Source: an uncultured Bacteroidales bacterium (GTDB lineage Bacteria > Bacteroidota > Bacteroidia > Bacteroidales > Bacteroidaceae). Taken from it: DNA of 33,313 nt. Position 1 is the first letter of the stretch. Every line of letters begins with the position of its first letter. The stretch covers positions 1 to 33,313 of the forward strand of contig CACZBC010000035.1 of NCBI GenBank assembly GCA_902779315.1. The letters run 5' to 3'. The notes under the pieces were generated by a model. The model ran no database searches, was not told where the DNA came from, and was given only the letters and a program-made list of their open reading frames with translations. The position numbers were made by a program, and so were the translations under genes. Positions 3,360 to 30,584 of the stretch are shown piece by piece.

Positions 3360-3461
3360 AAACCACCCACGCTTAATTGGCAAACTAGGCGTGGGTAGTT
3401 GGGCAACGAGGCACGTTAAGTTTAAGAACTAAGCGTGCTTCATTTTATAAGTAGGCGTTTC
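3360..3461. repeat. 22-bp periodic intergenic array A (about 5 units)
   Basis: Anchor words AAAC, AAAC, CAAC, GAAC and TAAG start at 3360, 3382, 3404, 3426 and 3448, exactly 22 bp apart. Each is followed by a variant of TAGGCGTG or GAGGCACG. The array fills the gap between two convergent genes and its last unit runs into the korB stop codon (complement of 3460-3462). It is a divergent member of the family seen at five other places in the window. Confidence 0.65.
3365..3446. terminator. Two hairpins between convergent genes, possible bidirectional terminator
   Basis: ACCCACGC (3365-3372) pairs perfectly with GCGTGGGT (3389-3396). A second stem pairs 3411-3420 with 3429-3438 (GCACG with CGTGC at the base, one mismatch and one G-T pair) and is followed by TTCATTTT on the plus strand. 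Both hairpins are formed by neighbouring units of array A. The position between two facing gene ends fits a shared terminator, but the T-run is weak. Confidence 0.45.
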
Positions 3462-4452
3462 ACTTCACCTCCCAAATGTCGTTCGTCTCGAGCAACTCGG
3501 CGAAGTTGTGGTACTTCTTGGCCGCTTTGACTTCTTCGATTTGGCTCCAGACGCATTCGTCATAGGTTGGGGCTTCGACGTCGCGAATCACACCAAGAGC
3601 GACGGGCCACTCCATCTCGGCAAGCTTCAACTGCAAGGTGTTGTCCTCGCATTTTGCATCGTGAACCAAAACGTCGGCTTCCGTGTAACCCTCCTCACCA
3701 AGTTTAACGGCCTTGATGTTAAAGCCTTCCTGCACGATACCGTACTCGTTATTCTCTCCGAAAAGCATCTTCTCGCCGTGCTTCAAATAGATGGCATTCT
3801 TGGCGCGACCTTCCTTCGAATAGACCGCATCGTGCGTGCCGTTGTTGAAAATCACGCAGTTCTGCAGGATTTCGCAAACGCTGGCACCTTTGTGATTGTA
3901 GGCCGCCTTGAGAATCTCCACGGTGCCCGGGGCATCGGTGGCAACGGCGCGGGCAAAGAAATGACCTCTCGCTCCGAAGCACAACTCGGCAGGACGGAAA
4001 GGATCTTCAACCGTTCCGTAAGGCGAGGACTTGCTGACGAAACCGCGAGGGCTGGTGGGGCTGTACTGTCCCTTCGTCAAACCATAAATTCTGTTGTTCA
4101 GCAGAATCATGTTCAGGTTGATGTTACGGCGGTTGGCGTGTATGAAGTGATTGCCTCCGATAGCCAGTCCGTCGCCATCACCGCTGACTTGCCATACGGT
4201 CAGATTGGGGTTAGCGACTTTGCAACCAGTCGCAATCGCAGCAGCACGACCGTGAATGGTATTCATGCCATACGTCGCCATGTAGTGCGGCAAACGGCTT
4301 GAGCAGCCGATACCGCTGATGACGGCAGTCTGCGAAGGCGCCACACCTATCTCGGCCATCGCTTTGTGCAGGCTGGCGAGGAAGAAGTGGTCACCACATC
4401 CAGGACACCACCGCGGCTGTCCTTTCTTGAAATCATTATTCGTGTAAGCCAT
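3460..4452 (-). CDS. korB: 2-oxoacid:ferredoxin oxidoreductase, beta subunit
   Basis: This 330-residue subunit binds thiamine diphosphate and the [4Fe-4S] cluster in oxidative decarboxylation of a 2-oxoacid (probably 2-oxoglutarate) to an acyl-CoA with reduction of ferredoxin. Visible motifs are WCPGCGD (Cys16, Cys19), GIGC (Cys50) and QNC (Cys198), which match the four cluster ligands of the family. The TPP/Mg motif GDGDG starts at residue 90 and ends with NN at 118-119. It follows korA after 14 bases, with AAAGGA upstream of its ATG, so the two form one operon. Length is normal. 2-oxoglutarate rather than pyruvate is inferred from the fused gamma-alpha partner and the overall resemblance to KorB; no separate ferredoxin subunit gene is adjacent. 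Confidence 0.93.
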   Translation of the reverse strand: MAYTNNDFKKGQPRWCPGCGDHFFLASLHKAMAEIGVAPSQTAVISGIGCSSRLPHYMATYGMNTIHGRAAAIATGCKVANPNLTVWQVSGDGDGLAIGGNHFIHANRRNINLNMILLNNRIYGLTKGQYSPTSPRGFVSKSSPYGTVEDPFRPAELCFGARGHFFARAVATDAPGTVEILKAAYNHKGASVCEILQNCVIFNNGTHDAVYSKEGRAKNAIYLKHGEKMLFGENNEYGIVQEGFNIKAVKLGEEGYTEADVLVHDAKCEDNTLQLKLAEMEWPVALGVIRDVEAPTYDECVWSQIEEVKAAKKYHNFAELLETNDIWEVK

Positions 4453-4467
4453 AGTTATGTGTCCTTT

Positions 4468-6303: not shown

Positions 6304-6346
6304 CGTTAACTATTAACTATGAACTCTAAAATGTGAACTTTAAAGC
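6302..6346. repeat. Simple-sequence spacer between tRNA-Arg and korA
   Basis: The 45-base gap consists of near repeats of TTAACTAT and TGAACT (for example GTTAACTATTAACTATGAAC). Such words are typical low-complexity spacer in this order, by my recollection. No TAnnTTTG element is present on the minus strand, so korA has no obvious promoter of its own. Confidence 0.5.
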
Positions 6347-6348
6347 AG

Positions 6349-6420
6349 TACTCCCGCCGGGAATCGAACCCGGATCGACGGTTTAGGAAACCGTTGTTCT
6401 ATCCATTGAACTACAGGAGC
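6349..6420 (-). tRNA. tRNA-Arg (anticodon CCT)
   Basis: On the minus strand a 72-base cloverleaf can be drawn. The acceptor stem is GCTCCTG with CGGGAGT. The anticodon stem ACGGT/ACCGT encloses TTCCTAA, giving anticodon CCT. The T arm is CCGGG-TTCGATT-CCCGG. The discriminator is A and CCA is not encoded, as is usual in Bacteroidetes. It reads AGG codons. Confidence 0.95.
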
Positions 6421-6482
6421 TCCAAGCAGTTCTGCCCGTCTTGCAGAGCAAAACTTGGCCTTCCGTTATCCTAAATTCGCGT

Positions 6483-6491
6483 GCAAAGGTA
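6483..6491 (-). promoter_or_regulatory. Promoter -7 element for tRNA-Arg (and perhaps korAB)
   Basis: The minus strand reads TACCTTTGC, a perfect match to the Bacteroidetes -7 consensus TAnnTTTG, about 63 bases before the tRNA. A -33 TTG is not exact at the expected distance (TTC is present). The upstream sequence is an A-rich near repeat of GAAAGATG (about 6503-6527). Confidence 0.6.
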
Positions 6492-6534
6492 CAACAATTA
6501 ATTGAAAGATGAAAGACGAAAGATGAAAAAAATG

Positions 6535-6762
6535 AAACTTCACACGCGAAAAACGTAAACATCACACTAGTTAAACCCAAACGTAACACTATACGATTGC
6601 AATCGTCACACTAGTCATTCGCAAACTTCACACTAGTCATTCGCGAACTTCAAACGTGAAAAACGCAAACTTCACACTAGTAAATCACAAACTTCACTGG
6701 GGACGTTTGACAAGTTCGCCAGAAGTATGCTACGATTTCACCTGTTCTTGCTAATATTTCAC
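6535..6762. repeat. 22-bp periodic intergenic array B (9 exact units plus 2 partial)
   Basis: The anchor (AAAC or variant) begins at 6535, 6557, 6579, 6601, 6623, 6645, 6667, 6689 and 6711, which is 22 bp each time. It is typically followed by TTCACACTAGT or TTCAAACGTG. TTCAC recurs in phase at 6737 and one base early at 6758. The first half of the unit varies (CATTCGC, CGATTGC, AAAACGC) while the TCAC core is kept. The array fills the divergent gap and stops 8 bases before the -33 element of the SusC promoter. Confidence 0.8.
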
Positions 6763-6770
6763 CTCTTTTC

Positions 6771-6802
6771 TTGCTTTTCAGAAGAATTTTGCATAACTTT
6801 GC
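6771..6802 (+). promoter_or_regulatory. Housekeeping promoter of the SusC/SusD/GH85 operon
   Basis: TTG (6771-6773), a 20-base spacer and TAACTTTGC (6794-6802) match the Bacteroidetes TTG-N19/20-TAnnTTTG promoter. The ATG at 6832 lies about 30 bases after the -7 element. This supports that start over the upstream in-frame ATG at 6727, which is inside array B and before the promoter. Confidence 0.8.
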
Positions 6803-6831
6803 AAAGCAGATTATACAAATTAAACATCTAT

Positions 6832-11949: not shown

Positions 11950-14900
11950 ATGAATTTAAAACATCTTTCTCTCACGGCAGTCATCTTGCTGGCAGCCTCA
12001 ACGACAAGCTTCGCCCAGCAACCCTTCAATGTATGCTGCCATCCTCAAGACATCAAGAATTGGACTCCAGGATCTAATCCCGATGATGCGTTCAATGTTT
12101 CAAAGGTGCCTTTACAAACGCGCTTCAAGGAACCAACCTTGATGAAAGCCAACTCTACACAATTCTATGACGGACAGATCTGCAACTCCACCATCCTCTA
12201 CCCTACTTGTTCACTCTGCCCGTCGCAAGGTGAATTGGGTAACTTCCTTGGTTATCAGCCAACTTATTGGCAGTACATGGACAAGTTGGTCTATTGGGCT
12301 GGTGCAGCTTCGGAAGGCATAATCAACATTCCGCCTGCCGGATCTACTGATGCGGCTCACCAAAGCGGTGTTAAATCATTAGGTAACATCTTCTTCCCAC
12401 CTGCAGCTTTCGGTGGCACGCAAGTCTGGGTTCGCGAGATGTTGGCTCAGGAAGGCGGCCACTATCCAATGGCTATCAAACTCTATGAAATGGCTAAATA
12501 CTATGGTTTCGACGGATGGTTCATCAATGAAGAAACTGGTGGCGGTTCACAAAGTGAGTGGGAAGCCTTCTTCCGCGAGTTCTACGCCGCAGCAATGGCT
12601 GATGACCCTAACACCCAAATGGAGCTGCAATGGTACAATGCCTCACGCACACCCAACACCGGCATCCTCAAGACGCACATCAATACATCGCAGTTCGTGG
12701 AGTACGGCGCCGTGAAAGACTACCGCGGATATGCCGAACAACTCGGTTGCACCGAAGCACAGACTTTCTCGAAGATTTATGCAGGTATCGAACTGGCACA
12801 AGCTGGCCACCTAGGTTGGACATCGGCTCTGAACAGTGCCATGCCCACTACAGGCCATGTAGGTTCGCTCGACCTCTTCTGCCCTGAAACAAAGATATGG
12901 GAAGATCCTGCAAAGAGAGCCTTCAAGTCTGCAAGCGATTGTCACGGCGAAACTGCATACCCCATCGCAAAGACCGTATTCGACAATGAGGAGGATATGT
13001 GGGTAAATACCAATTCCGACCCGACAGTAATTCCCTCAAGTGGCTTCCCTGGCGTGTCAAGTCGAATCTTGGAACGTTCTGCAATTACATCTATGCCGTT
13101 CGTGAGCGATATGGCTGTAGGTAATGGCAAACATCGTTTCGTAAATGGTGAGATTAGGGGTACTATGGATTGGTACCACTCTGGCATGCAAAGTGTGTTG
13201 CCGACTTGGCGTTGGTGGATTGAAAAGAATAACGGACTTTCGGTCTCAATCGATTGGGATGATGCTTGGAATGTAGGTTCAAGCTTCAAGATTTCAGGCA
13301 CATTGTCATCAGGCAGCCATTTAGTTCGTTTATATAAGACGCAGATTCCCGTGACAAATGGCGGCACCTTCCGTGTTGTCTACAAATCGTCTAGGCGTTT
13401 AACAATGCAAGCAAAACTCTCCACCGAGAGTTCGGTAGAACCAAATGTAACATTATCAGGCGAAACGACAACAGTAAACGGATGGACTATCTGCGACTTC
13501 GATCTCTCCTCTCTCAACGGAAAGACGATTTACATGCTTGGCTTCAGCATCAAAGCCGCTGCTGCTTTGTCAAACTATTCACTCAATATCGGTCAGGTTG
13601 CAGTCCTGCCCGCAAACTATTCGCCAGCCCCTGTGGAAGTAACAAACTTGTCTACAACAAGTGTTTTAGGCGAAGAGAAGGGTGATATACGCGTCACTTG
13701 GAAATACAATTGGACGAACGATTTCGACCATTTCGACATCTATACACAAACGATGGACGGCACAAAGAAACTCGTCGGACAGACTCGCGACGAAGGTTTC
13801 TACATTCCCAGTTTTGAAAGGAATGGTTCCGACAGCTATGTTTCCGTACTTGTAGTGCCCGTCATGAAAGACGGTGTGGAGCAACCCGCAAACGAACTTC
13901 AAGTGAATTATCCTGCTCCCACAGCTCCAAAAGTAACTTATTCTGTCGCTCCAAAGAGTTATGTTTTGGTTGGCGAAGCAGTTACTGTAACAGCCAATTG
14001 TACAGGTCATCCCACAAGCTATCTTTGGACGCTTCCCGAAGGTGTGAGCCTCGTTTCAGGAGGTCTGACAGAGCAGTCTGTTGTGGTCAAGTCGAATACC
14101 GAAGGTAAGATAACACTCACAGTTGCCGCCACCAATGAAGTTGGCACGACAGAGTACTCTGCAGAGGCTTTCGACGTCTTTGCCGACGCTGCCGCACAGA
14201 ACTCCGTTTACAACATTATCAGGGGAAAGACGGTGGTAAGCTTCAGTGGTTCGACCAATTCCACTGAGGTGCCCAACAAGATTATCGATGGCGTGACCAA
14301 CCCCTCGGCAACCTCTTCCAAGTGGTGCAACATATCTCCCGACAATGAAGTCGTGTTTGATGCGGAAGGTGCTTATCGCATTTACGGATTCGTCATTTAC
14401 GACGGCAACGCAGGTCCCGAGTCTGGTGTTGACCAAATTGACACTTACACTATCGAGTTGTCACAAGACGGCACCAATTGGCAAACTGTTGTTGACAACC
14501 ACACACCTGGCAACGAGAAGATTTCAATCAAGAGCGACTACATTGCTCCCGTGAAAGCCCGTTATGTCCGACTGCGTCCACATGTGAACGGAACACTTCG
14601 CATCTGGGAATTTGAAGTGTATGGTAAGGAGGACAACAACCTGACGATGACTATCGAACCTAAGGAAACGAAACTCTTTGCCGGCGAAAGCAAGAACATC
14701 AAAGTCCATTATGATTTGGGTGGCGACAAGCGGGAGGAATACTTTGTCTGCACTGCAAAGTCCGCTACAGGTAATGCCACCATCGGAGAGATTACGGAAA
14801 ATGTGAAGGAACAGACTTTCACGGTTCCCATTTATGCTGGCCTCGCTTTCGGTAACGACGAAATCACCATTACCATCAACAATGGCGGCGCTTATCAGGA

Positions 14901-16303: not shown

Positions 16304-16445
16304 AAACTTGGCGTGCCTCGTTGGCAAACGTCACGTGTGAAGTTTGCAAAGTTCACGTGTGAAAATGGCAAACTTCACTGCAGTCGTTGGGAAACTTCAC
16401 TGGCGATATTTTAGGTTTCACGTTCTGTACTTGCAACAATCACAC
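16304..16445. repeat. 22-bp periodic intergenic array C (7 units)
   Basis: Anchors lie at 16304, 16326, 16348, 16370 and 16392 (22 bp each). TTCAC/ATCAC cores continue at 16417 (one base early) and 16439. Units carry TTCACGTGTG or TTCACTG after AAAC/AAAG. The last unit contains TCA at 16440-16442, which is the complement of the stop codon of the convergent membrane acyltransferase gene. The segment 16331-16361 can fold into an 11-bp RNA stem with G-U pairs. Confidence 0.75.
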
Positions 16446-17552
16446 TTTCAGGAAGATACGATTGCGATAGAGAACATAGAGGAACAACCAGCAAACTGCG
16501 ATATATGCCACTTGAGTGAAGAAGGTTTGGGAATTCTCGGGCATCAATTTCACCAGTCCGCCAAAGAGTTTCTCCGAGGTATAGGAGAAGCGGATAAACC
16601 TTTGAGCAAGATAGATGGTGATGGAGTTCATGCCGATTACTGTGAAGAAGAGGGTCCACCTTCGCCATTCAAGCACGTCTATAATAAGATAGAAGAGAGC
16701 GAACATCAGCACAGAATAGGCTCCCACAACCATCACGAACGAGCTCGTCCACATCTTCTTGTTGATGGGGAACACTTCGTTCCAGAGCAAACCTATTGCC
16801 AGCAAAACAATGCCTGCAAGTATCATCCACAATACCTTTTTGCCAGGAGTCAGACCATTTCGTTTCGACTTCACCAATTCGCCTGTAAACATGCCCAAAA
16901 GCGCTGTTCCGATAGCGGGAATGACGCTCAGGATGCCTTCCGGATCGATGTTCCCATAATAGATCCTGCCTGGCAGAAGAATGCGATCCACATAGCCCAC
17001 AAAAGAGCCTTGAGCGCTGAAGATGTCCTCACCATTCCCGTCTGGAGCTGGGATGAAACCTGCTACAAGCCAATATCCGACGAGCAGAACGGACGTGATT
17101 CCCACTCTGGTCTTCCAACCGGTATGTATGAAAATGAGTGCCGCAAACATCCAAGCCAAACCGATTCGACCTAGAACGCTGGCATAACGAAGACTCTCGA
17201 AGTCGAAGTCGAGCAGTCCATTATAGACAACTCCCAAGAAAACAAGCATCAAGCCACGAACGATGACTTTCCTGTGGATTGCCCATTCAGAGCGGCCATT
17301 CTGGCGTTGTTTCGCCAAAGAAAACGGGAAAGAAATACCTGCGATGAAGAGGAAAAGCGGGAAGATGGTGTCGTGATGGCGAAGTCCGTGCCATTCAACG
17401 TGATCCATCTGCTCGGCAATCGCCTGAGTAAACGGGCAGGGAAACCATTCGGCAAGGGCGATAAGAAGGGCTGCGCCACCCATTATAAACAACATATCGA
17501 AGCCTCGAAGGGCATCTATCGACATTAATCGGTCTGTTTTCACGTTTTTCAT
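16440..17552 (-). CDS. Membrane acyltransferase-like protein (DUF5009 / HGSNAT-related)
   Basis: This 370-residue polytopic membrane protein has roughly ten or eleven hydrophobic segments. The N-terminus SIDALRGFDMLFIMGGAALL and the following HHDTIFPLFLFIAGISFPFS are the signatures of the DUF5009 group, related to heparan-alpha-glucosaminide N-acetyltransferase. DPEGILSVIPAIGTALLGMF is also conserved in that group. A role in transmembrane acetyl transfer to a glycan or cell-envelope sugar is inferred from the family; the substrate is unknown. It lies 48 bases after the nucleoside kinase on the same strand, probably last in that operon. Its stop codon lies inside array C. Confidence 0.85.
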   Translation of the reverse strand: MKNVKTDRLMSIDALRGFDMLFIMGGAALLIALAEWFPCPFTQAIAEQMDHVEWHGLRHHDTIFPLFLFIAGISFPFSLAKQRQNGRSEWAIHRKVIVRGLMLVFLGVVYNGLLDFDFESLRYASVLGRIGLAWMFAALIFIHTGWKTRVGITSVLLVGYWLVAGFIPAPDGNGEDIFSAQGSFVGYVDRILLPGRIYYGNIDPEGILSVIPAIGTALLGMFTGELVKSKRNGLTPGKKVLWMILAGIVLLAIGLLWNEVFPINKKMWTSSFVMVVGAYSVLMFALFYLIIDVLEWRRWTLFFTVIGMNSITIYLAQRFIRFSYTSEKLFGGLVKLMPENSQTFFTQVAYIAVCWLFLYVLYRNRIFLKV

Positions 17553-20073: not shown

Positions 20074-20082
20074 TAATTTTGC
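20074..20082 (+). promoter_or_regulatory. Promoter -7 element for the FKBP operon
   Basis: TAATTTTGC matches TAnnTTTG and lies 30 bases before the ATG at 20112. A -33 TTG is not clear. It favours 20112 as the translation start over the ATG at 20079, which overlaps this element. Confidence 0.55.
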
Positions 20083-20111
20083 TGCGCATTTTAAATAAAA
20101 ACGTTTTATAT

Positions 20112-20696
20112 ATGGACAAAATAAGTTATGCTTTGGGGCTCGGAATAGGGCAACAGATAAAAAGCATGAACATAGAGAACTTCAGCATTGAGGACTTTGC
20201 GAAGAGCATCAGCGATGTGATGGAAGGCAAGGAAACCGCCTTCTCAAACCGCGAAGCACAGATCATGCTGCAAGAGTATTTCACGAAGAAACAGAAGGAA
20301 GAGGCTCAGGCACACATTGCTGAAGGCAAGGCCTACCTCGATGCGAATGCCAAGAAGGAAGGCGTGACCGTTACGAAGAGCGGCCTGCAGTATGAGGTTT
20401 TGCAGGAAGGAACGGGCAAGAGCCCTAAGGCTACCGATACGGTTCGCTGCCATTATGAGGGACGTTTGCTCGACGGAACCGTCTTCGACAGCAGCTACAA
20501 ACGTGGCGAACCTGCCGACTTCGGACTGAATCAGGTCATTACAGGCTGGACCGAAGGCGTTCAACTGATGAAGGAAGGTGCAAAGTTCCGCTTCACCATC
20601 CCCTATCTGTTGGCTTACGGAGAACAAGGTGCTGGCGCAAACATACCGCCTTTCAGCACACTCATCTTCGACGTAGAACTGATAAAAGTATTGTAA
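20112..20696 (+). CDS. FKBP-type peptidyl-prolyl isomerase, cytoplasmic form (first of three)
   Basis: This 194-residue prolyl cis-trans isomerase has an FKBP_N-like helical segment (about 1-85, ISYALGLGIGQQIKSMNIEN, linker HIAEGKAYLDANAKKEG) and an FKBP domain (about 105-194). Active-site landmarks are HYEG, FDSSY, VITGW, AYGEQGAG and IPPFSTLIF. No signal peptide is visible from the chosen ATG, so it is predicted to be cytoplasmic, unlike its two neighbours. The FKBP_N domain is usually found in exported FkpA/Mip-type proteins and mediates dimerisation. The next FKBP gene starts 34 bases downstream. Confidence 0.9.
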   Translation: MDKISYALGLGIGQQIKSMNIENFSIEDFAKSISDVMEGKETAFSNREAQIMLQEYFTKKQKEEAQAHIAEGKAYLDANAKKEGVTVTKSGLQYEVLQEGTGKSPKATDTVRCHYEGRLLDGTVFDSSYKRGEPADFGLNQVITGWTEGVQLMKEGAKFRFTIPYLLAYGEQGAGANIPPFSTLIFDVELIKVL

Positions 20697-20730
20697 ATCA
20701 CAAACTCATTAACTTATAAACACAATTAAA

Positions 20731-21597
20731 ATGAAGAAATTTTCAATTCTGGCAGCCGTTGCTTTGGCTGCTATTCTGTGGAGCTGCGGTAATGGCGCTC
20801 CCAAAGCTAACCTGAAGGACGACGTTGATACACTGACTTATGCAGTTGGCGTGGCACAGACTCGTGGCCTGAAAGAGTACATGACTCAGCGCATGAATGT
20901 CGACACAACCTATATGGACGAGTTCTTCAAGGGCCTGAAAGAAGGTGCAAATGCTGGCGACAACAAGAAGAAGGCTGCCTACTATGCTGGTATTCAAATG
21001 GGTCAGCAGATCGCTCAACAGTGGATTCCCGGTCTCAGCTACGAGATCTTCGGCGAAGACAGCACTCGCACAGTCAGCCTTCAGAACCTTCTGGCCGGCT
21101 TCATCTCAGGTGCTAACGGCAAGGACTGCAAGATGACTGTCGACGAAGCAGAGCAGACAATGCAGACAATGATGCAGACCGTCAAGGCCAGAGTGATGGC
21201 TGAAAAGTATGGCGACTGGAAGAAAGAGTGCGAAAACTACATGGATAGCATTGCCAAGAAGGAAGGCATCAAGGAACTGGGCGACGGCGTTTACTACGAA
21301 GTCATCACAGAAGGTAAGGGTGCTATCCCAGCTGACACCAACAGAGTTAGCGTCAACTACGAAGGCAAGCTCCTCAACGACACTATCTTCGACAGCAGCT
21401 ACGAGCGCAAAGAACCCGCTAAGTTCCGCTGCAACCAGGTTATCCCAGGTTGGACAAAGGCTCTGACCAACATGCCTGTAGGTTCTACTTGGATGGTTTA
21501 CATTCCTCAGGAACAGGCTTACGGAGAGCGTGAAGCCGGCAAGATCCTGCCTTATTCTTGCCTCATCTTCAAGATCGAACTTCTTGGCATCGAGTAA
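20731..21597 (+). CDS. FKBP-type peptidyl-prolyl isomerase, lipoprotein form (second of three)
   Basis: This 288-residue protein has a lipoprotein signal (MKKFSILAAVALAAILWSC, lipidated Cys19). A helical FKBP_N region follows, with two copies of the paralogue pattern (TLTYAVGVAQTRGLKEYM and YYAGIQMGQQIAQQW). The FKBP domain (about 200-288) carries VNYEG, FDSSY, VIPGW, AYGEREAG and LPYSCLIF. It probably folds periplasmic or outer-membrane proteins while anchored to a membrane. AQRMGVDTTY-like wording (TQRMNVDTTYMDEF) is shared with the third gene, so these two are the closest paralogues. The third gene begins 12 bases after its stop. Confidence 0.9.
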   Translation: MKKFSILAAVALAAILWSCGNGAPKANLKDDVDTLTYAVGVAQTRGLKEYMTQRMNVDTTYMDEFFKGLKEGANAGDNKKKAAYYAGIQMGQQIAQQWIPGLSYEIFGEDSTRTVSLQNLLAGFISGANGKDCKMTVDEAEQTMQTMMQTVKARVMAEKYGDWKKECENYMDSIAKKEGIKELGDGVYYEVITEGKGAIPADTNRVSVNYEGKLLNDTIFDSSYERKEPAKFRCNQVIPGWTKALTNMPVGSTWMVYIPQEQAYGEREAGKILPYSCLIFKIELLGIE

Positions 21598-21609
21598 TCT
21601 GCAAGCACA

Positions 21610-22515
21610 ATGAAGAAGTTTATCCTGTTTGCACTCTGTGCCTGCATATCTTTGGGCATGAGTGCTGCAAAGAAGAACACAAAGAAGAATAAATCCAAGC
21701 AACCAGTTGAGGTGGTCGATACGGTTAGTGTCGACACCTTCAGCTACTTCTTTGGTCGTGCCAATTCCAATGGGTTGAAGGGTTACTTGGCTCAGCGAAT
21801 GGGTATCGACACAACTTATGTTGCCGACTTCCTGAAGGGCTTTGAGCAAATGACTCTCACCGAAGCCGACAAGAAGGAGAAGGCCCGTCTGGCTGGCATC
21901 GAGATTCGTCAGCAAGTAGAGCAGCAGGTCTATCCAGGTGCCTCCAAGCAGGTGAATGACAGCACCGATATCCTGAACAAGACACTCTTCCTGAAGGGTT
22001 TCCGCGACGGCTTCTCTGGCGAAAATGCCACCGTTTCGATGGATAGCACCCAGAAGCTCGTCAAGAAGCAGATGGAGTACTACCATAGGGTCAACATGGA
22101 GAAGAAGTATGGCGCAAACCGTATTGCAGGCGAAGAGTTCCTCAAGGCTAATGCCAAGAAGGACAGCGTGAAGGTCACTCCAAGCGGTCTGCAATACAAG
22201 ATCCTGACTCAGGGCACTGGCGAGATTCCCACAAAGGAAGCCAAGGTGAAGGTCAACTACGAAGGTCACCTCATTGACGGAACTGAGTTCGACAGCTCGT
22301 ACAAGAGGAACAAGCCCGTCACCTTCCCCGTCGCTCAGGTTATTGCCGGATGGACAGAAGCCCTTTGCATGATGCCTGTAGGCAGCAAGTGGATGCTTTA
22401 TGTGCCTCAGGAACTGGCTTACAAAGACAAGGAACAGAGCAAGATTCCTCCTTTCTCCTGCCTCATCTTCACCGTTGAGCTTTTGGAGATTGAAAAGGAA
22501 GCTACGAAAAACTAA
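21610..22515 (+). CDS. FKBP-type peptidyl-prolyl isomerase, soluble secreted form (third of three)
   Basis: This 301-residue protein has a Sec signal peptide (MKKFILFALCACISLGMSAA) and a Lys-rich mature N-terminus. The helical FKBP_N region contains DTFSYFFGRANSNGLKGYL and AQRMGIDTTYVADFLKGFEQ. The FKBP domain (about 205-296) carries VNYEG, FDSSY, VIAGW and IPPFSCLIF. The usual AYG turn is changed to AYKDKEQ, which may alter the loop over the active site. It is predicted to be a periplasmic isomerase/chaperone. Its last codons and stop (AAA AAC TAA) form the first unit of array D. Confidence 0.9.
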   Translation: MKKFILFALCACISLGMSAAKKNTKKNKSKQPVEVVDTVSVDTFSYFFGRANSNGLKGYLAQRMGIDTTYVADFLKGFEQMTLTEADKKEKARLAGIEIRQQVEQQVYPGASKQVNDSTDILNKTLFLKGFRDGFSGENATVSMDSTQKLVKKQMEYYHRVNMEKKYGANRIAGEEFLKANAKKDSVKVTPSGLQYKILTQGTGEIPTKEAKVKVNYEGHLIDGTEFDSSYKRNKPVTFPVAQVIAGWTEALCMMPVGSKWMLYVPQELAYKDKEQSKIPPFSCLIFTVELLEIEKEATKN

Positions 22516-22640
22516 GCACGCCTAGTTGGCAAACTTCACACGTGAAAAAGCCAAACTTCAAACGTGAAGTTTGCCAACATCAAAGGCGACGTTTGGCAAC
22601 GTCACTGCAGATGTTCCGAAACACAACTTCAAACGAATCC
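22509..22640. repeat. 22-bp periodic intergenic array D (6 units)
   Basis: Anchors AAAC, AAAC, AAAC, CAAC, CAAC and AAAC begin at 22509, 22531, 22553, 22575, 22597 and 22619, exactly 22 bp apart. The array starts inside the last codons of the third FKBP gene and ends shortly before GH97. A perfect 9-bp hairpin CAAACTTCA-AACG-TGAAGTTTG lies at 22552-22573. No TAnnTTTG promoter is seen between the two genes; units contain GAAGTTTGC, which differs from it by one base. Confidence 0.8.
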
Positions 22641-22660: not shown

Positions 22661-24613
22661 ATGAAGAAGTCACTTTTCCTTGCGGTTCTGCTCCTTTCGA
22701 GTTTTGTCGCAAACGCGCAGAAGAAAGTCAGCGCAACGAGTCCAGACGGACAGACTAAAGTAACGGTAACCGTTTCCGACCGTATCTATTATGACGTAGA
22801 AAGTCATGGAGAGCTGCTCTTCAAGCAGAACTTCATCGGCATGACACTCAGTGATCGTACCCTCGGAGAGAAGCCTTCCCTCAAGGGCAACAAGGTTACG
22901 AAGGTCAACGAGACCATTACACCTATCCATCCCCTCAAGTTCAGCAAGGTCGAGAACAACTACACTTTGCTCACGCTAACCTTTGGCGGAGGCTACAAGG
23001 TTGAGTGGCGCGTCTATAACGACGGTGTTGCTTACCGCTTCATCACTGCCCTGAAGGGCGACATCGAGGTGATGGGCGAAGTAGGAACCTGGCAGTTGGC
23101 AACGCCCAGCAAACTCGTTCTGCAGCAACCTGGTGGCTTCAAGACAAGCTGCGAGGAGAACTACTCAGTCGTTGAAAGCAATGCCTGGAAGGCTGACGAC
23201 AAGATGAGCGAACTGCCCATCCTCGTTATGGGCGAGAAGCAGAAAGTCCTCATCTCCGAGTTCGACCTGTTTGATTATGCAGGTGTCTTCCTCAAGTCTG
23301 TTGGCGAAGGCACCAACGCTTTCTCCATCATCCAGCCAAAGTGCCCCATTGAATACCAGGATGACGGCGACCGCAGACACAAGATTCTCAAGGAAGCAGA
23401 CTATGTTGCCAAGACACAAGGCACTCGCACATTCCCTTGGCGCTATATGCTCATCACTCAGAGCGACGGACAATTGGTGGAGAGCACAATGCCTGTTCGT
23501 CTCGCTCCAGCAAATGCCATTGGAGAAACCGATTGGATTAAGGTCGGACAAACTTGCTGGGACTGGCTCAACGGCATTCCCTTCGGTCCTGATGTAACTT
23601 TCAAATCTGGCATCAACCTTGACACCTACAAGTACTTCATTGATTTCGCAGCCCGCAATGGCGTGGGTTACATCCTCATAGATGAAGGTTGGGCGCTCAA
23701 CACACGCAACCCCTTCGAGACCAATCCCGAGGTGCATCTGCCCGAGATTATCGCTTACGGCAAGAGCAAAGGCGTGGGCGTCATCCTTTGGTTGCCTTGG
23801 CTCACAGTCGAGCACCACATGGACCTCTTCCAGAAGTTTGAGGAGTGGGGCATCAAAGGCACGAAGATCGACTTCATGGACCGTCAGGACCAATGGATGG
23901 TCAACTTCTACGAACGCGTTGCCAAAGAGGCTGCCAAGCATCACATCTTTGTTGACTTCCACGGCGCATTCCATCCCAGCGGCTTGGATTACAAGTATCC
24001 CAACGTCCTGACCTACGAAGGTGTGCGTGGTATGGAGTATAACGGCAGCTGCAAACCCGATAATAGTGTATGGCTGCCCTTCATCAGAAATGCTGTCGGA
24101 CCCATGGACTACACCCCAGGCTCAATGCTTAACTACCAGCCCGAACGCCATCATGGCGGCCGTCCCATCTGTGCAGGTGTTGGCACGAAAGTCTTCAACC
24201 TAGCTATCTTCGTGCTTTGCGAAAGCAACCTGCAAATGCTGATGGACAATCCCTGCCGCTACGACCAATGGCCCGACTGCCGCGACTTCCTCACAAGCGT
24301 GCCTGTGAATTGGGACGAGACACGAGTTGTCGCAGCTGAAGCAGGCCAGTATTGCGTAGTAGCAAAGCGCAAGGGCGACAAGTGGTTCATTGGTGGCATC
24401 ACCAATAGCACTGAGCGTGACTTGCAACTCAAGCTCGACTTCCTGACTGCAGGAAAACAGTATAAGATGACGAGCTTCGAGGATGGTGTCAACGCACACA
24501 TCATCGCAATGGACTATCTCCGCAAGGAAAGCAGAGTGAACAACTCGACAGTCGTGCCCATTCATATGGCTCGAAATGGCGGTTGGTGCGCAAGCTTCGA
24601 CCTAGGAAGATAA
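22661..24613 (+). CDS. Secreted GH97-family glycosidase, probably retaining type
   Basis: This 650-residue enzyme starts with a signal peptide (MKKSLFLAVLLLSSFVANAQ). An upstream in-frame ATG at 22571 lies inside array D and is rejected. Order: N-terminal GH97 beta-sandwich (about 20-270), (beta/alpha)8 barrel (about 280-560, GQTCWDWLNGIPFGPDV, YILIDEGWA), and C-terminal beta domain. GTKIDFMDRQDQ carries Asp404/Asp407, and TYEGVRGMEYN carries Glu453 and Glu459. The KIDFMDR pattern is that of retaining GH97 enzymes (alpha-galactosidase-like, nucleophile Asp) rather than inverting SusB-type alpha-glucosidases. An alpha-galactoside substrate is an inference from that. It may be co-transcribed with the FKBP genes and ends at a strong terminator. 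Confidence 0.92.
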   Translation: MKKSLFLAVLLLSSFVANAQKKVSATSPDGQTKVTVTVSDRIYYDVESHGELLFKQNFIGMTLSDRTLGEKPSLKGNKVTKVNETITPIHPLKFSKVENNYTLLTLTFGGGYKVEWRVYNDGVAYRFITALKGDIEVMGEVGTWQLATPSKLVLQQPGGFKTSCEENYSVVESNAWKADDKMSELPILVMGEKQKVLISEFDLFDYAGVFLKSVGEGTNAFSIIQPKCPIEYQDDGDRRHKILKEADYVAKTQGTRTFPWRYMLITQSDGQLVESTMPVRLAPANAIGETDWIKVGQTCWDWLNGIPFGPDVTFKSGINLDTYKYFIDFAARNGVGYILIDEGWALNTRNPFETNPEVHLPEIIAYGKSKGVGVILWLPWLTVEHHMDLFQKFEEWGIKGTKIDFMDRQDQWMVNFYERVAKEAAKHHIFVDFHGAFHPSGLDYKYPNVLTYEGVRGMEYNGSCKPDNSVWLPFIRNAVGPMDYTPGSMLNYQPERHHGGRPICAGVGTKVFNLAIFVLCESNLQMLMDNPCRYDQWPDCRDFLTSVPVNWDETRVVAAEAGQYCVVAKRKGDKWFIGGITNSTERDLQLKLDFLTAGKQYKMTSFEDGVNAHIIAMDYLRKESRVNNSTVVPIHMARNGGWCASFDLGR

Positions 24614-26158: not shown

Positions 26159-26185
26159 ACACTTAATATAATAATGTATAAGACA

Positions 26186-26902
26186 ATGAAAAAGGTTTTA
26201 GCAGCCATCTTATTGGCAACATTGGGAGTAACAAGCGTAATGGCAGATGACATCTTCGACGACGAGAAGTTGCCGATGATTAAAGTTGGGAAGAACAATT
26301 CGAGAAGTACTGTGGAGATAGACTTGAGCAGCAGTCTCTCCTTCGGTTTCATCACAGGCATCAACGAAGACAAAGGTGTGAACATCGACATGGGGCAGTC
26401 TTACGAAATTGAGTGGGGCGACGTGATTAGCAGCAAGGTACGTGTCGGCAAGAAAGATTTCATGCGAATCGGAATGGGATTCGACTGGAGGAACTATAGG
26501 GTGACTGACTTCAAGATGTTCTCCAAAGACGAACGCGGCATCATTTCCATGCAGGACTATCCTGAAGGCACAGAGCCCAAGTTCAGCCGTATCCATACGT
26601 TCAGCCTTTCTTTCCCTCTCAAATACTACCACTACTTCAACAAAAAGGTGTATTTTGCCGTAGGTCCTGAGCTCTACTTCACACCTTGGGGCTCGCTCAA
26701 GACGCGTTATTATGAGGATGGCGAAAAGAAGAAGATCACATCTGGGAACGTTCACCAGAGCCGCTTCTCTGTTGGAGTGGGGGCTGAAGTCATTGTGCAT
26801 CACATAGGTGTCTACTACAAATACAACCCCTTCAATGTCCTTCGAACCAGTTATGGGCCGAAGTTCAGCACAATGACGGTAGGCCTGAAAGTGGCTTTCT
26901 AG
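26186..26902 (+). CDS. Outer-membrane beta-barrel protein (porin-like)
   Basis: This 238-residue protein starts with a signal peptide (MKKVLAAILLATLGVTSVMA). An ATG four codons earlier (26174) is possible but adds only MYKT. The body alternates polar and aromatic residues as in small 8- to 10-stranded barrels (KVRVGKKDFMRIGMGFDWRN, YYHYFNKKVYFAVGPELYFT, VGVGAEVIVHHIGVYYKYNP) and ends in VGLKVAF, an outer-membrane insertion signature. It is the last gene of the ECF operon, 27 bases after the previous one, and may be the envelope component whose state the operon monitors. The stop is followed by array E and its terminator. Confidence 0.85.
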   Translation: MKKVLAAILLATLGVTSVMADDIFDDEKLPMIKVGKNNSRSTVEIDLSSSLSFGFITGINEDKGVNIDMGQSYEIEWGDVISSKVRVGKKDFMRIGMGFDWRNYRVTDFKMFSKDERGIISMQDYPEGTEPKFSRIHTFSLSFPLKYYHYFNKKVYFAVGPELYFTPWGSLKTRYYEDGEKKKITSGNVHQSRFSVGVGAEVIVHHIGVYYKYNPFNVLRTSYGPKFSTMTVGLKVAF

Positions 26903-26914
26903 TTTGACACTTGA

Positions 26915-26998
26915 AAACGTGGCACGTGAAGTATGCAAATGTCACGTGTGACGATTGCGATTATCACGTGTGAAGTTTGCCATCTTCACACGTGATGT
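26915..26998. repeat. 22-bp periodic intergenic array E (4 units)
   Basis: Anchors AAAC, AAAT, GATT and CATC begin at 26915, 26937, 26959 and 26981, exactly 22 bp apart. They are followed by TCAC(AC)GTG cores. The array fills the convergent gap between the barrel gene and the sulfatase. Confidence 0.75.
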
Positions 26999-27003
26999 TT
27001 TTT
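26963..27003 (+). terminator. Terminator formed by two units of array E
   Basis: ATCACGTGTGAAG (26963-26975) pairs perfectly over 13 bp with CTTCACACGTGAT (26984-26996) around the loop TTTGCCAT. GTTTTTT follows at 26997-27003. This is a textbook Rho-independent terminator for the ECF operon, built entirely from the 22-bp repeat. Confidence 0.85.
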
Positions 27004-27004: not shown

Positions 27005-28612
27005 TCAAGGCAGGCTGATGGGAAAGAAGGGGCTTTCCTCGTGCTCTTGATGAACAATATTGATGAGTTCCGCAAGCTTGTCAGGATAGTCAGCTTTGAG
27101 GTCGTGGTCCTCGTGAATGTCTGTAGAAAGGTCGTAGAGGAACGGCTTTCCCTGACTGACGACCAGTTTCCAATCGCCTTTTCTGACGCCTATCACTTGC
27201 GTTCCTCCATCGCTCATTTCCCAATAGAGGAACTCGTGCTTCTGTTGTTTCCTGTCCTTTCCAAGCAAAGTTGGGCAGAAGGAAATGCCGTCATAACGAG
27301 GAGAATCGAGGCTGTGTTCCTTGATTTCCCCCTTCGAGAACGCGCCACTATACTCCATGAAGGTTGGCATAAGGTCGTAGAAGGCAAGCTGATGATGGCT
27401 GACTTTGCCTTTCGGAATGCCTGCTCCCCAACAGATGAAGGGGATGCGAATGCCGCCTTCGTAGGTGCTTCGCTTGATGCCTCGCAGCTTTCCATCACGC
27501 CCAAAGAAGCCTGGATCTGCCCCACCCTCTTCATGAGGGCCGTTGTCGCTGGTAAAGATGACGAGTGTGTTCTCTGCAAGCCCCTTTTCTTGGAGCTTCT
27601 CGAGAATCTCTCCGACATACGAATCGAGGCGTGTAATCATGGCTGCAAACTGGGCATGTTTGTCCTCGCCACCATAATACCAACTGCCTGCATCTGTCCT
27701 GAATGAGCGTTCCTGCTCGCTTGGGAAGAGCTTATGATAGTGTTCAAGGATTGAGTCTCGAGGTTGCCAAAGCTCGGCATGAGGGAGAGTATAGGTGAAG
27801 ATGCCCAGGAAAGGCTCGTCCTTCGTTTGTCTGTCGAGCCAATCAAGGGCATAACGATGGATGAGGTCGGCTGAGTATTGAGTCCGCTTCTCATAGTCTT
27901 CGCTGCCGGAATTCACGCCAGGATACTCGATATTCTGCTCCAAAACCTCTGCCACAAGGTGTTTGTCGCCCTTTCCTTCGGGGTCGTATCGGTTCAGGAA
28001 ATTGGGGAAATAAGTGTGAGCCTGAAACTGACAGACAGGACCATAAAAGCAATCTATGCCCCTCAGGTTGGGCAAAGAGCACGACGAACTCTCCCTGCTC
28101 CGGCTTGTATCCGTGTTTCCATCTGGAAGACGGGCATAAGTGTCAGGAAAGTCGAAGTTCCAATAGCCTCCAGCCCACTTTCCGAACATGCCCGTATGAT
28201 AGCCCTTCTTCTTGAAAAGTTCAGGGATGATGGGGTGAGTCATATCGTAAGGTTCCTGCCCAACTACGTAGTAATCAGCATTTTCGCCGAACATATTCTG
28301 CCTGAGCACAGAGCGTCCCCAGTACTCGCGATTGCCTCTTATCTTCGCATGACCTGTATGCTGGCCCGTCATGAACGAGCAACGGCTGGGTGCACTTACA
28401 GGGCAACCTGCATAGGCGTCAGTGAATCTCAACCCCTCCTCTGCCATTCGGTCGATGTTGGGAGTAGCGATGAGCCTTTGCCCATAACATCCCAAGTCGC
28501 CATAACCCATGTCGTCACACATTATATATATAATATTATGACGATGCGAGCCTGCGAACACCATCAAAGATGATGTGCCGAACAATGGCAAAAAGTATCG
28601 TTTTACATTCAT
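27005..28612 (-). CDS. Secreted sulfatase (S1 arylsulfatase family, Ser-type active site)
   Basis: This 535-residue sulfatase hydrolyses a sulfate ester, probably from a host glycan. The start at 28612 (MNVKRYFLPLFG, weak signal peptide) is chosen because the promoter's -7 element overlaps the earlier ATG at 28642. Asp33 and Asp34 (MCDDMGYGD) are calcium ligands. The sulfatase signature is Ser-Ala-Pro-Ser-Arg, with Ser73 predicted to be converted to formylglycine (CPVSAPSRCSFMTG). Other landmarks are GMFGKWAGG, FTSDNGPH and KRSTYEGGIRIPFI. The Ser-type site requires an anaerobic radical-SAM maturase, which is not in this window. The substrate is not predictable. Confidence 0.92.
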   Translation of the reverse strand: MNVKRYFLPLFGTSSLMVFAGSHRHNIIYIMCDDMGYGDLGCYGQRLIATPNIDRMAEEGLRFTDAYAGCPVSAPSRCSFMTGQHTGHAKIRGNREYWGRSVLRQNMFGENADYYVVGQEPYDMTHPIIPELFKKKGYHTGMFGKWAGGYWNFDFPDTYARLPDGNTDTSRSRESSSCSLPNLRGIDCFYGPVCQFQAHTYFPNFLNRYDPEGKGDKHLVAEVLEQNIEYPGVNSGSEDYEKRTQYSADLIHRYALDWLDRQTKDEPFLGIFTYTLPHAELWQPRDSILEHYHKLFPSEQERSFRTDAGSWYYGGEDKHAQFAAMITRLDSYVGEILEKLQEKGLAENTLVIFTSDNGPHEEGGADPGFFGRDGKLRGIKRSTYEGGIRIPFICWGAGIPKGKVSHHQLAFYDLMPTFMEYSGAFSKGEIKEHSLDSPRYDGISFCPTLLGKDRKQQKHEFLYWEMSDGGTQVIGVRKGDWKLVVSQGKPFLYDLSTDIHEDHDLKADYPDKLAELINIVHQEHEESPFFPISLP

Positions 28613-28641
28613 AGTTTTGTGTTTAGTGCACCTTTTTGGCA

Positions 28642-28671
28642 CAAAGTTACGAAAAAGTTTGGTAGGAACAA
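28642..28671 (-). promoter_or_regulatory. Promoter of the sulfatase gene
   Basis: On the minus strand TTG (28671-28669), 19 bases, then TAACTTTG (28649-28642). This is an excellent match to the Bacteroidetes consensus and lies 30 bases before the ATG at 28612. It overlaps the divergent tRNA-Leu promoter. Confidence 0.8.
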
Positions 28672-28690: not shown

Positions 28691-28702
28691 AGCCGGTTTT
28701 AA

Positions 28703-28784: not shown

Positions 28785-28788
28785 CAGG

Positions 28789-28824: not shown

Positions 28825-28849
28825 GCATTAAACGAAGAACTAACCAACT

Positions 28850-30346
28850 ATGAAGAAGAGCCTATTTCTTGCCTTTTTTCTCTGCTTCCTTGTGGTAAAG
28901 GCACAAGTTGCAGAGGTGTCCGACAGTCTTGTACAGGTCTATAAGAGCAGCGATGCTCGGTTCTACACGTTCAACTATCCTTCGAAGAGTGCAAGTGGCG
29001 AAGACGTAGTTCTCTCGTCCTTGCTCATTGCCTGGATGCCTTCGAAGCCCGCTGCAACCGATAGTATCGAGTCGCTTCACATTTACAGTCACTATACGAT
29101 TACTGCCGACAAAGAGTGCCCCACATCGAATCAGAACTCACAAGACCGCCTTTTGTTCAGCATGTTGGTGAAAGGCAAGTACGGATTAGGCTTGAATTCC
29201 AACTACAATTTCGTTTCTCGTAGTGTCGTCATTGCTCCTGATTACGAGGGTTATGGCGTGAGCAAGGACAGGAGTCACCCTTATCTTTCGCAGGAGCTGA
29301 CTGCAAGACAAGTAATGGACGCAGTTCAGTATGGCCTCGAGCTTTACCAGAAGCATATCAACGACAATCGGGCTTTGGATTTCAAGAGCGATTGGCGCAG
29401 TTTCAGTTGGGGTTTCTCGCAAGGCGGAGCAGTTGCCCTCGCAGTACATCGTTACATTGAACAGAATGATCTTTCAGATGAGTTGAGGTTCCGCGGAAGC
29501 ATTTGTGGTGACGGGCCTTACGACCTTCTTGCCACGATGCAATACTATATGGAGGACGACGGAAGCAGTTTCGATGCTGAAACCAGCCACCAAAAGGGAA
29601 TGTGTACGATGCCGATGGTAATGCCGATGATTGTCAAAGGTGCACTCGACAGCCACCCTATCATGCAAGGTCACACACTCGAAGACTACTTCTCTCAGCA
29701 GTTCCTCGACACAGGCATTATGGATTGGCTGGCCAGCAAGCAATACACTACTGGCGACATCAGCAAGAAGTGGTATCAACAACTGAAGAACGGCCTCGAT
29801 GCTAATGGACGCCATTATACTCCCCAACAAATGGCTGAGCTCTTCTATTCGCCTTCCACGAACGATGTTTGGGGCAAGCTCGACAAGATCTTCAAACCAG
29901 GTTACAAGAATTATTCAGGCAAGTGGGCAGACCTTTATCAAGCGATGGTCGACAACGGAGTCGCATCAGGTTGGCAGCCTCAACATCGCATCCAATTCCT
30001 TCACTCAAGAGGCGATACCGTCGTACCCTTCAGTAACTATCTGGCTTTTCGAGATGCTCACCTCGATGACGAAGGCGAACTCTTCCGTTTAGATGATAGT
30101 TTCACCCCTCAAGACCACAGTACAGCTGGCACGAACTTCTTTTTGGCACTTACTGCCACAGGTTCTTATGGCGAATACTTCAAGTGGCTCGACGAAAGTC
30201 CAACTGTCACGAAAGTTCAGAGCCCAGATTGCTTTGCTCATAGCGAAGGTGATGCTTGGTACGACCTCTCTGGTCGTCGTCTGAATGGCCGTCCTTCAGC
30301 TAAGGGAATCTACATTTTCAAGGGCAAGAAGATTGCGGTTAAATAG
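28850..30346 (+). CDS. Secreted alpha/beta hydrolase (lipase/esterase-like)
   Basis: This 498-residue protein has a signal peptide (MKKSLFLAFFLCFLVVKAQ) and an alpha/beta-hydrolase fold. The nucleophile elbow GFSQGG places Ser190 as catalytic, preceded by VIAPDYEGYGVSKDR. Asp389 in HSRGDTVVP and His423 in QDHSTAG would complete the triad. It resembles secretory lipase-like and peptidase-like hydrolases of Bacteroidales. The substrate is unknown. The last 35 residues (AWYDLSGRRLN, AKGIYIFKGKKIAVK) resemble the C-terminal tail of the GH85 enzyme at 11950. No promoter of its own is seen; the tRNA-Leu transcript ends just upstream. Confidence 0.85.
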   Translation: MKKSLFLAFFLCFLVVKAQVAEVSDSLVQVYKSSDARFYTFNYPSKSASGEDVVLSSLLIAWMPSKPAATDSIESLHIYSHYTITADKECPTSNQNSQDRLLFSMLVKGKYGLGLNSNYNFVSRSVVIAPDYEGYGVSKDRSHPYLSQELTARQVMDAVQYGLELYQKHINDNRALDFKSDWRSFSWGFSQGGAVALAVHRYIEQNDLSDELRFRGSICGDGPYDLLATMQYYMEDDGSSFDAETSHQKGMCTMPMVMPMIVKGALDSHPIMQGHTLEDYFSQQFLDTGIMDWLASKQYTTGDISKKWYQQLKNGLDANGRHYTPQQMAELFYSPSTNDVWGKLDKIFKPGYKNYSGKWADLYQAMVDNGVASGWQPQHRIQFLHSRGDTVVPFSNYLAFRDAHLDDEGELFRLDDSFTPQDHSTAGTNFFLALTATGSYGEYFKWLDESPTVTKVQSPDCFAHSEGDAWYDLSGRRLNGRPSAKGIYIFKGKKIAVK

Positions 30347-30438
30347 GCCACGAGTTTGTCGCAGCCTGCTTGCGTCCTCCTTTGCTCTTCGAACAGAAAA
30401 AGGCAGACGAATTGAAAGAAAAAACTTTACAAGTTTTT

Positions 30439-30584
30439 GAAGATGGCATGTGAAAAGCGATAACTTCACAGGCAAAGCTGGCCGACGACCCTCAGTTAAA
30501 ATCAAAACTTCACACGTTAAGTTTGCCAACGACCTTAGTGAAGTTTGCTAACTTCACACGTTAAATCTGCCGATGAAATGGGGC
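30439..30584. repeat. 22-bp periodic intergenic array F (7 units)
   Basis: Anchors begin at 30439, 30461, 30483, 30505, 30527, 30549 and 30571, all exactly 22 bp apart. Conserved units read TTCACACGTT after AAAC or TAAC. GTGAAGTT-TGCT-AACTTCAC (30538-30557) is a perfect 8-bp hairpin. TAAGTTTGC at 30518-30526 also matches the -7 promoter consensus, without a -33. Confidence 0.8.

Follow-up and report, generated by a model that had tools for sequence, protein, structure and literature searches.

Short tandem arrays with a unit of 22 bp are dispersed as one family, almost wholly between genes, through the draft genome of an uncultured Bacteroidales bacterium (Bacteroidaceae). The family was recognized in a window of 33,313 bp, which is one whole contig of that genome (CACZBC010000035.1, C35) and carries six of the arrays. 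In related species, the arrays keep their addresses, change by whole units, and carry unit types that differ by lineage. Our reading, to which we give a probability of roughly 0.55, is that they are lineage-restricted dispersed satellites at old, fixed addresses, whose units are replaced by copying between arrays and which are mainly passengers. Genomes are referred to by G numbers and loci by L numbers, G000 being the source genome (2.83 Mb, 84% complete).

Detection and genomic placement of the arrays

A sequence-only reading of the window had described phase-locked 22-bp arrays at six loci. The six stretches, as delimited by that reading, were evaluated with no training, by comparing lags of 12-40 and using 500 dinucleotide shuffles per stretch. 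The best lag was 22 in all six, with scores (13.8-71.0) above those of all 500 shuffles (p = 0.002 each), which bears out the description. Within G000, the pattern AAGTTTGCCAACTT with one mismatch allowed occurs at 39 places (reversed control, 0), and a 44-bp sequence model gives 240 matches at E <= 0.05, from part of which distinct arrays were counted. A circular 22-state profile, trained on fetched pattern matches, delimits at least 115 distinct arrays of about 2-12 units each (mode 5); as the count derives from the fetched places it is a lower bound, and the true total is probably higher. No indel step occurs in 110 of the 115, a figure that is biased, since the profile penalizes indels. 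Whether the repeat is confined to the six loci, or its spacing resembles that of shuffled sequence, was thereby also tested, and neither is the case.

The claim that the arrays are intergenic holds genome-wide with few exceptions: two of the 115 lie within called open reading frames (ORFs), nine have an uncalled neighbor, and the remaining 104 lie between called genes. Along the array strand, the flanking gene pairs of these 104 are (-,-) in 33, (+,+) in 29, (+,-) in 24, and (-,+) in 18 cases; therefore, the array strand does not track the gene strand. The median distance from array to stop codon in G000 is 27-29 bp in codirectional and 38-71 bp in convergent gaps, and in divergent gaps the arrays lie a median of 186-188 bp away from either start. 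A profile-free survey of gaps of 66-1200 bp in nine species of the carrier clade (see below; G013 and G094 were kept outside the pool) identified 44 of 148 gaps as periodic at lag 22, 7 at lag 21, at most 3 at each of nine other lags, and 0 at lag 23. By orientation, arrays are present in 13/23 convergent, 25/94 codirectional, and 6/31 divergent gaps (convergent versus divergent, p = 0.009), starting a median of 21-23 bp beyond the stop codon. Elsewhere, lag-22 periodic gaps amount to 4/22 in G013, 4/11 in G094, and 3/44 and 1/48 in two outgroup congeners.

Distribution among genomes

The 44-bp model was run against a relatives set of 61 genomes and, with stricter filters, a genus set of 139. 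In the relatives set, it matched 10 genomes, namely the source genome and 9 of 36 other congeners, and none of the 24 genomes from other families; in the genus set, 28 of 139 were matched, the source genome included. A pattern with 20 set bases, matched exactly in one genome per species across 84,980 species, returned 15 stretches. All are from metagenome-assembled genomes whose titles give Bacteroidaceae or Bacteroidales; the sources are mostly rumen compartments, with one from cecum. A three-gene tree covered 18 species, among them 15 carriers, which group in a single clade (100/100), and G114, the next branch out, has no match to the 44-bp model; 13 other carriers are outside the tree, several of them with a single weak match (e.g., G098, whose KorA is 86% identical). 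The lag-22 autocorrelation of intergenic sequence is strong in the window (z 7.3), G012 (z 7.5), and G076 (z 8.7), and weak or absent in G069 (z 2.7) and G104 (z 0.9). G012 and G076 keep the 22-bp period though mostly with other unit sequences; further 22-periodic classes are the TACATGTATGTATAA-type units in G076 (L235, L236) and the GGTTAACC-type units in G012 (L231, L232, L234). An origin from phages or plasmids was rejected, as array 2, the only one searched, had no match and no viral contig exactly matched a pattern with 19 set bases.

Kept addresses and whole-unit turnover

At the array-bearing boundaries of the window, 15 of the 20 gaps recovered from relatives score at least 14 at lag 22 (Table 1); at its array-free boundaries, 1 of 25 is periodic, namely an AT-rich simple repeat in G076. 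Downstream of the FKBP gene next to array 4, clear arrays of different sequence are found in G112, G005, G076, G008, G146, and G094. At the same place, a terminator-like hairpin with a T-run is seen in G035 and in G069 (by eye), G012 has a terminator-like hairpin followed by three 22-bp units of another sequence (by eye), and G114 has a mere 27-bp gap at the array 4 position. Among orthologous gaps with a G000 array, the relative also has one in 24/24 rows; most loci in this comparison had been selected for their arrays, in G000 and in the relative alike, apart from three unselected stretches of relatives, and at least one place is represented twice (L090, L240).

The sister species, G137, has 88-95% DNA identity to G000 over most matched loci, and 13 of its arrays could be aligned to their counterparts. 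Eight differ by whole amounts of 22 bp or 44 bp (one by +22 and -22), four show no net length change, and one is inverted, with the aligner sometimes splitting a block or leaving one or two odd columns at its edge. The flanks are 85-97% identical and gapless in 9/13. Relative to array 3, the G137 ortholog has an additional unit at one place and lacks one at another. At one site (L257 in G137, L116 in G000), the array is reversed while the orientation of the flanking genes is unchanged; the better-scoring strand differs at L115/L243 and L006/L262 too, but both strands score there, hence these cases are ambiguous.

To account for the preserved spacing, the sequence-only reading had offered either selection on helical phase or a slippage-type mechanism that keeps length, and the latter is directly supported by the whole-unit differences in 8/13 sister alignments. 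We attribute the fixed step to this phase-keeping turnover, that is, to whole-unit gain and loss together with probable copying between arrays. The 22-bp step within a single array needs no selection on helical phase; that the period outlasts the replacement of units may leave room for it.

An in-frame array in a peptidase gene

One of the two arrays in ORFs lies in a gene with Pfam M16 peptidase domains (L109:1048-2085), where it runs in frame through a linker. Full-length orthologs were found in 13 of 16 genomes searched, comprising 12 clade members and the outgroup G104; the matches in G013, G069, and G114 were weak and concerned other M16 genes. The aligned length is 1035 bp for ten of the clade orthologs and 1056 bp for the remaining two (G024, G012). 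With the G000 copy counted, 12 of 13 clade copies are 22-periodic at this site (scores 19.5-66.2; seven other lags, below 8), and the copy of the outgroup G104 is not (4.5). The length of the array hardly varies, 10 of the 12 periodic copies having an identical aligned gene length. The unit types at this one site, assigned by eye, change with the lineage: CTAG/CTAT in G000 and G137; CCGCACGCGG-like in G076, G027, and G094; CGTAACACGTTAAG in G008; GCGGCACGCC in G146; CGACACACGTTATATT in G036; GCCACAGCATTATT-like in G024 and G012; and AGTACCACC in G112 and G035.

The G000 peptidase array has a mean similarity of 0.82 to 102 arrays of its own genome versus 0.47-0.71 to 10 non-sister orthologs. 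For G076, the mean is 0.74 over 10 own arrays versus 0.46-0.67 to orthologs of other types, with 0.77-0.86 to two of the same type; samples of paralogs outside G000 are small (8-18 arrays). The occurrence of the AGTACCACC type in the non-sisters G112 (L298) and G035 (L305) would reflect either interspecies transfer or retention of an old type. The other in-frame array (L143:1457-1566) is within an ORF of 223 amino acids, which resembles an anti-sigma-factor protein by eye and has no Pfam match.

Lineage-specific units and probable copying between arrays

Unit types are restricted to lineages genome-wide as well. Within the genus set, the 13-mer CACACTAGTAAAT has 242 copies in G000, 125 in G137, 64 in G112, 3 in G127, 2 in G005, and 1 each in G036, G076, and G077, and none in the other 131 genomes. 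CCGCACGCGGNGATTG has 138 copies in G076, 98 in G027, 31 in G094, 3 in G096, 2 in G036, and 1 in G137, and none in the other 133, including G000; the reversed-pattern controls for both gave 0 copies. CACGTGAAGTTTGC was found in 14/139 genomes, with at most 20 copies in each. Among the 115 G000 arrays, CACTAGTAAA is present in 64, ACTAT in 51, and CACGTG in 46 (overlapping counts). Where CTAG and CTAT units share an array, the CTAG units come before in 30, after in 7, and interleaved in 1 (30 versus 7, p = 0.0002).

Exact copies of whole units are shared between arrays of G000. Of 510 complete units, 193 recur exactly in at least one other array, where a first-order column model predicts 72 +/- 10, and the most widespread exact unit is present in 25 arrays. 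The sequence-only reading had supposed that unit sequence drifts freely, which these copies contradict. Over the whole 22 bp, adjacent units have a mean identity of 77% and units of different arrays 65%. We infer templated copying between arrays, because parallel point mutation would need identical multi-base changes at dozens of loci.

Palindromes, hairpins, and terminators

The unit had also been described as quasi-palindromic and able to form a hairpin, which is true for part of the arrays and is not general: the unit consensus is palindromic (p < 0.05) in 45 of 159 lag-22 arrays sampled across five species (22/101 of those in G000) and in 0/6 outgroup repeats. Nine state pairs per hairpin form, 18 altogether, were evaluated for pairing co-variation, using 54 own and 46 other arrays. 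Clear co-variation in the sense of base pairing is seen at columns 14-21 (z 12-21). Columns 16-19 also co-vary, though in own arrays alone (z 16) and with fewer Watson-Crick pairs than expected; co-variation is weak at columns 15-20 and 19-16 (z 2-5), and the remaining tested pairs show none. In folding, 60 sampled G000 arrays equal 19 array-free gaps of the same genome (mean z -2.49 versus -2.52); the means for arrays of G012 (n = 8) and G076 (n = 11) are -4.1 and -3.3, values that have no own-genome control. End-to-end complementarity averages 5.96 versus 5.83 for mismatched arrays (standard deviation of control means 0.14), with scores of at least 8 in 16/114 arrays versus 9 in the control. 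The 3' ends of 114 arrays have runs of four or more T in 47 cases and A-runs in 19, and the 5' ends mirror this, with A-runs in 51 and T-runs in 26.

Terminators were compared in gaps of 66-600 bp, a lag-22 score below 10 defining array-free gaps and scores of 10-14 being omitted within the clade. Canonical terminators were identified in 11/14 array, 6/9 array-free, and 5/13 outgroup gaps between convergent genes; in 3/28, 11/72, and 5/46 codirectional gaps; and in 1/4, 3/27, and 2/18 divergent gaps, so that array gaps show no depletion of terminators and no clear enrichment. The terminator overlaps the array in 9 of the 15 array gaps that have one. Rfam 15 at gathering score identified only two tRNAs in the window. 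As a general account, an RNA or DNA hairpin family was rejected, as co-variation, G000 folding, and end closure do not support it; the terminator counts likewise lend no general support to a replacement of terminators, and the data argue only weakly for a hairpin or terminator role of the unit.

Comparison with known repeat systems

In the open-access literature (titles and the starts of abstracts, a coverage outside which most subscription journals lie), no description of this family was found. CRISPR (clustered regularly interspaced short palindromic repeats) arrays consist of a constant repeat alternating with unique spacers, with regular spacing and distinct ends. The arrays described here are similar in their regular spacing and distinct ends; however, the unit itself varies, no alternation of constant repeat and unique spacer exists, and there are more than 100 short arrays, so CRISPR was rejected.

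As far as the available portions of the source describe it, BrickBuilt is a 23-nt minisatellite within a miniature inverted-repeat transposable element (MITE) of Porphyromonas gingivalis, present at 19 loci in strain ATCC 33277 and having a leader and a tail with IS5-type inverted repeats (PMC4596501; see also PMC5771137 for P. gingivalis repeats). On that description, it shares with our arrays a short tandem unit, many intergenic loci, the lack of spacers, distinct end segments, and a Bacteroidales host, whereas here the unit is 22 and not 23 (best lag 22 in 6/6 arrays; 0/148 gaps at lag 23), loci number at least 115, and unit types are lineage-specific at shared loci. Inverted repeats of the BrickBuilt type (GAGACCTTTGCA-like, up to two mismatches) were found in 4 of 230 array flanks, a second form in 2, and the reversed control in 1. 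With the arrays included, the same search matches 47/115 versus 6, which we attribute to unit sequence such as GTGACGTTTGCA. Membership was rejected, as both the 23-nt period and the terminal repeats are missing, although the intergenic multi-copy trait is shared.

For repetitive extragenic palindromic (REP) elements, the accessible text of PMC3733652 distinguishes GTAG families with a REP-associated tyrosine transposase (RAYT) from CGTC families without one, the latter occurring also in Bacteroidetes, with a stem of 8-9 bp and a loop of 4-5 nt, mostly as head-to-head dimers. The likeness to REPs, as given there, consists of small palindromic repeats in high copy number, mostly downstream of genes in codirectional or convergent gaps and sometimes intragenic; the difference is that REPs are mostly singletons or inverted pairs, whereas our units stand head-to-tail at 22 bp. 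A search for the Y1 transposase (PF01797) covered 11 array carriers, without G112, G137, G146, and G094. It gave no match in G000, G005, G008, G012, G020, G024, G036, and G076 (drafts 62-89% complete) and matches in G027, G035, and G013. Given the lack of a match in 8 of the 11, a RAYT-driven REP was rejected. The GTAG tag of RAYT-type REPs does not appear in the unit consensus of the profile. A CGTC REP was rejected since the arrays are head-to-tail and CGTC, although present in G000 and G137 units, is absent from most other peptidase-site units (by eye). The sequence-only reading had not recognized the repeat as REP, bacterial interspersed mosaic element (BIME), CRISPR, or a known Bacteroidales repeat, which agrees with these results as regards CRISPR and RAYT-type REP, and with the literature searched.

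In the portions of PMC6749651 that were available, transposed satellite families are reported for two of the species surveyed (142 archaeal, 119 bacterial) and are called rare. The satellites of Leptospira interrogans and Methanocella conradii described there likewise are tandem repeats dispersed through the genome as one family; here, positions are shared across species and the unit is replaced by lineage, a distinction made on that description and not on sequence. The presence of the same tandem unit at the many G000 loci and its whole-unit variation between sister genomes correspond to a dispersed satellite, and we favor the interpretation of the family as a novel variant of dispersed prokaryotic satellites.

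Explanations of array turnover

We propose that units would be replaced through templated copying between distant arrays, either by strand annealing or by ectopic gene conversion, with the better-conserved TTGCCAAC junction as a possible anchor; slippage or unequal exchange would operate within arrays alongside. The arrays would be mainly tolerated passengers that selection restricts to places of low harm, such as gene ends, protein linkers, and sites far from start codons; their position, their tolerance in a linker, and their loss in G005 argue for this status. It is possible, at clearly less than even odds, that a dedicated process rewrites the interiors of more than 100 arrays in 22-bp register with flanks unmoved, amounting to genome-wide concerted satellite evolution. 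On this account, and as tentatively, a new unit type would sweep through the fixed addresses of the whole genome, those within a protein-coding gene included.

Several results weigh against replacement by copying at fixed addresses and against passenger status. Copying was deduced from end states, with no event caught in progress. At array boundaries, 5 of the 20 relatives' gaps are not clearly periodic, namely one in G137, two in G005 (one with a 75%-identical neighbor), and those after the FKBP gene in G036 and G013, and the G005 peptidase site is non-periodic as well (5.8). The G112 peptidase array is no closer to 17 arrays of its own genome (0.50) than to most orthologs, and has 0.83 to the non-sister G035, while the G012 array at this site resembles the one in the sister species G024 (0.90) and not eight others from its own genome (0.57). 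In addition, palindromic cores recur in unlike sequences above shuffle level, which would not be expected under plain neutrality, and the enrichment in convergent gaps and the homopolymer runs at array ends hint at a function at gene ends.

The palindromic cores, which often surround CACG or CGTG in unlike unit types, are what would be expected of phased binding arrays, in which a nucleoid or regulatory protein occupies palindromic sites about two turns apart and its specificity shifts by lineage while the spacing is kept; the survival of the period through unit replacement and the genome-wide change of unit type by lineage would follow too. We regard this as unlikely, considering that unlike unit types coexist in G000, which a single specificity would hardly tolerate, that AAACGTCACACTAGTAAATCGC, the unit found most often in G000, does not form a palindrome over its full length (by eye), that arrays in divergent gaps are remote from both starts, and that exact shared 22-mers are better explained by copying than by parallel point mutation. 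The position just beyond stop codons and the excess between convergent genes would instead suit gene-end RNA elements, hairpins in the transcript that, in the manner proposed for REP, would terminate transcription or shield the 3' ends of mRNA, and so would the T-runs at 3' ends with their 5' mirror image, the long inverted repeats of unlike sequence in some orthologous gaps (by eye), the overlap of terminators with arrays, and the uncontrolled folding values of G012 and G076, which are below those of G000. Set against this are the G000 arrays that fold no better than array-free gaps, end complementarity at control level, clear pair co-variation at columns 14-21 only, the unremarkable terminator counts, the 18/104 arrays between divergent genes, and the two arrays in ORFs, sites at which termination is therefore unlikely; we rate such elements as rather improbable.

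More than 100 dispersed loci require a spreading phase, and this, the difference between end and inner units, and the 27-bp gap in the near outgroup G114 are compatible with remnants of MITE-like elements, whose insertion would have dispersed a 22-bp minisatellite, a history like the one suggested for BrickBuilt. Nonetheless, column information drops to background about one unit beyond the arrays, so no flanking sequence is shared; the BrickBuilt inverted-repeat motif is as rare in the flanks as reported above; the eight carriers without a Y1 transposase match include G000 itself; and no filled/empty pair between close sisters was found among the compared gaps, which makes an origin of this kind quite improbable.

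The six arrays of the window

Table 1. Arrays of the window as delimited by the profile, with periodicity scores in G000 and at the orthologous boundaries of relatives
Array	Position	Strand	Units	Context	Profile score	Lag-22 score	Lag-22 scores in relatives
1	3360-3445	-	~4, degenerate	Fills gap between convergent genes 433-3345 (+) and 3460-4452 (-)	46.8	21.0 (best lag 22; 0/500 shuffles reach it)	G005 35.5, G036 29.0, G076 22.2, G137 9.5
2	6535-6719	+	~8	Between tRNA-Arg/korA (-) and gene starting 6832 (+); final unit contains CACTGGGG	182	71.0 (longer stretch of the sequence-only reading)	G137 83.2, G112 62.8, G076 40.5, G036 30.8, G005 only 12
3	16304-16411	+	~5	Between convergent genes 12142-16200 (+) and 16440-17552 (-)	96.9	36.8	G005 4 (non-periodic; best-matching neighbors, one only 75% identical)
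4	22509-22622	+	~5	From last codons of FKBP gene (21610-22515) to before GH97 gene (22661-24613); final unit contains CACTGCAG	104	40.2	Boundary found in 9 relatives: at least 29 in 7; G036 6.5, G013 8.8
5	26896-27000	-	~5	Fills gap between convergent genes 26174-26902 (+) and 27005-28642 (-)	101.8	28.8	Boundary recovered in no relative
6	30424-30571	+	~6-7, degenerate	Downstream of gene ending 30346	77.8	13.8 (best lag 22; 0/500 shuffles reach it)	Boundary recovered in no relative

The profile recovers all six arrays, with about 34 units together where 37-40 had been counted. Two steps of 21 bp had also been noted; no indel step is present inside the profile-delimited arrays, and these steps would sit in the excluded degenerate edges (e.g., 6720-6762). 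The statement that no array lies inside a gene was nearly right, as arrays 4 and 5 begin within the last codons of the genes ending at 22515 and 26902.

Some neighboring features were also recorded. The tRNA-Arg(CCT) of G000 (6348-6420) shows several stem differences, paired by eye, from those of G005, G035, G076, G036, G008, and G024. In the gap before the receptor gene (ortholog of 6304-6831; L160, L161, L162, L165), G005, G035, G076, and G036 share similar non-coding sequence of several hundred bp (by eye), which the shorter G000 gap seems to lack. At 20079-22515 there are three consecutive isomerase-like genes, Pfam FKBP domains having been tested for the third only, and the neighbors in relatives are similar.

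Significance

Dispersed satellite families are rare among prokaryotes, according to the available portions of the survey cited above (PMC6749651). The feature described here shows that place and period can be conserved when little of the sequence similarity remains, a kind of conservation that ordinary alignment would miss. In uncultured rumen Bacteroidales, the arrays would be of use as a variable-number marker. A clade that keeps address and period while its units sweep would also offer a natural setting in which to study how very short repeats undergo concerted evolution, slippage, and ectopic conversion.

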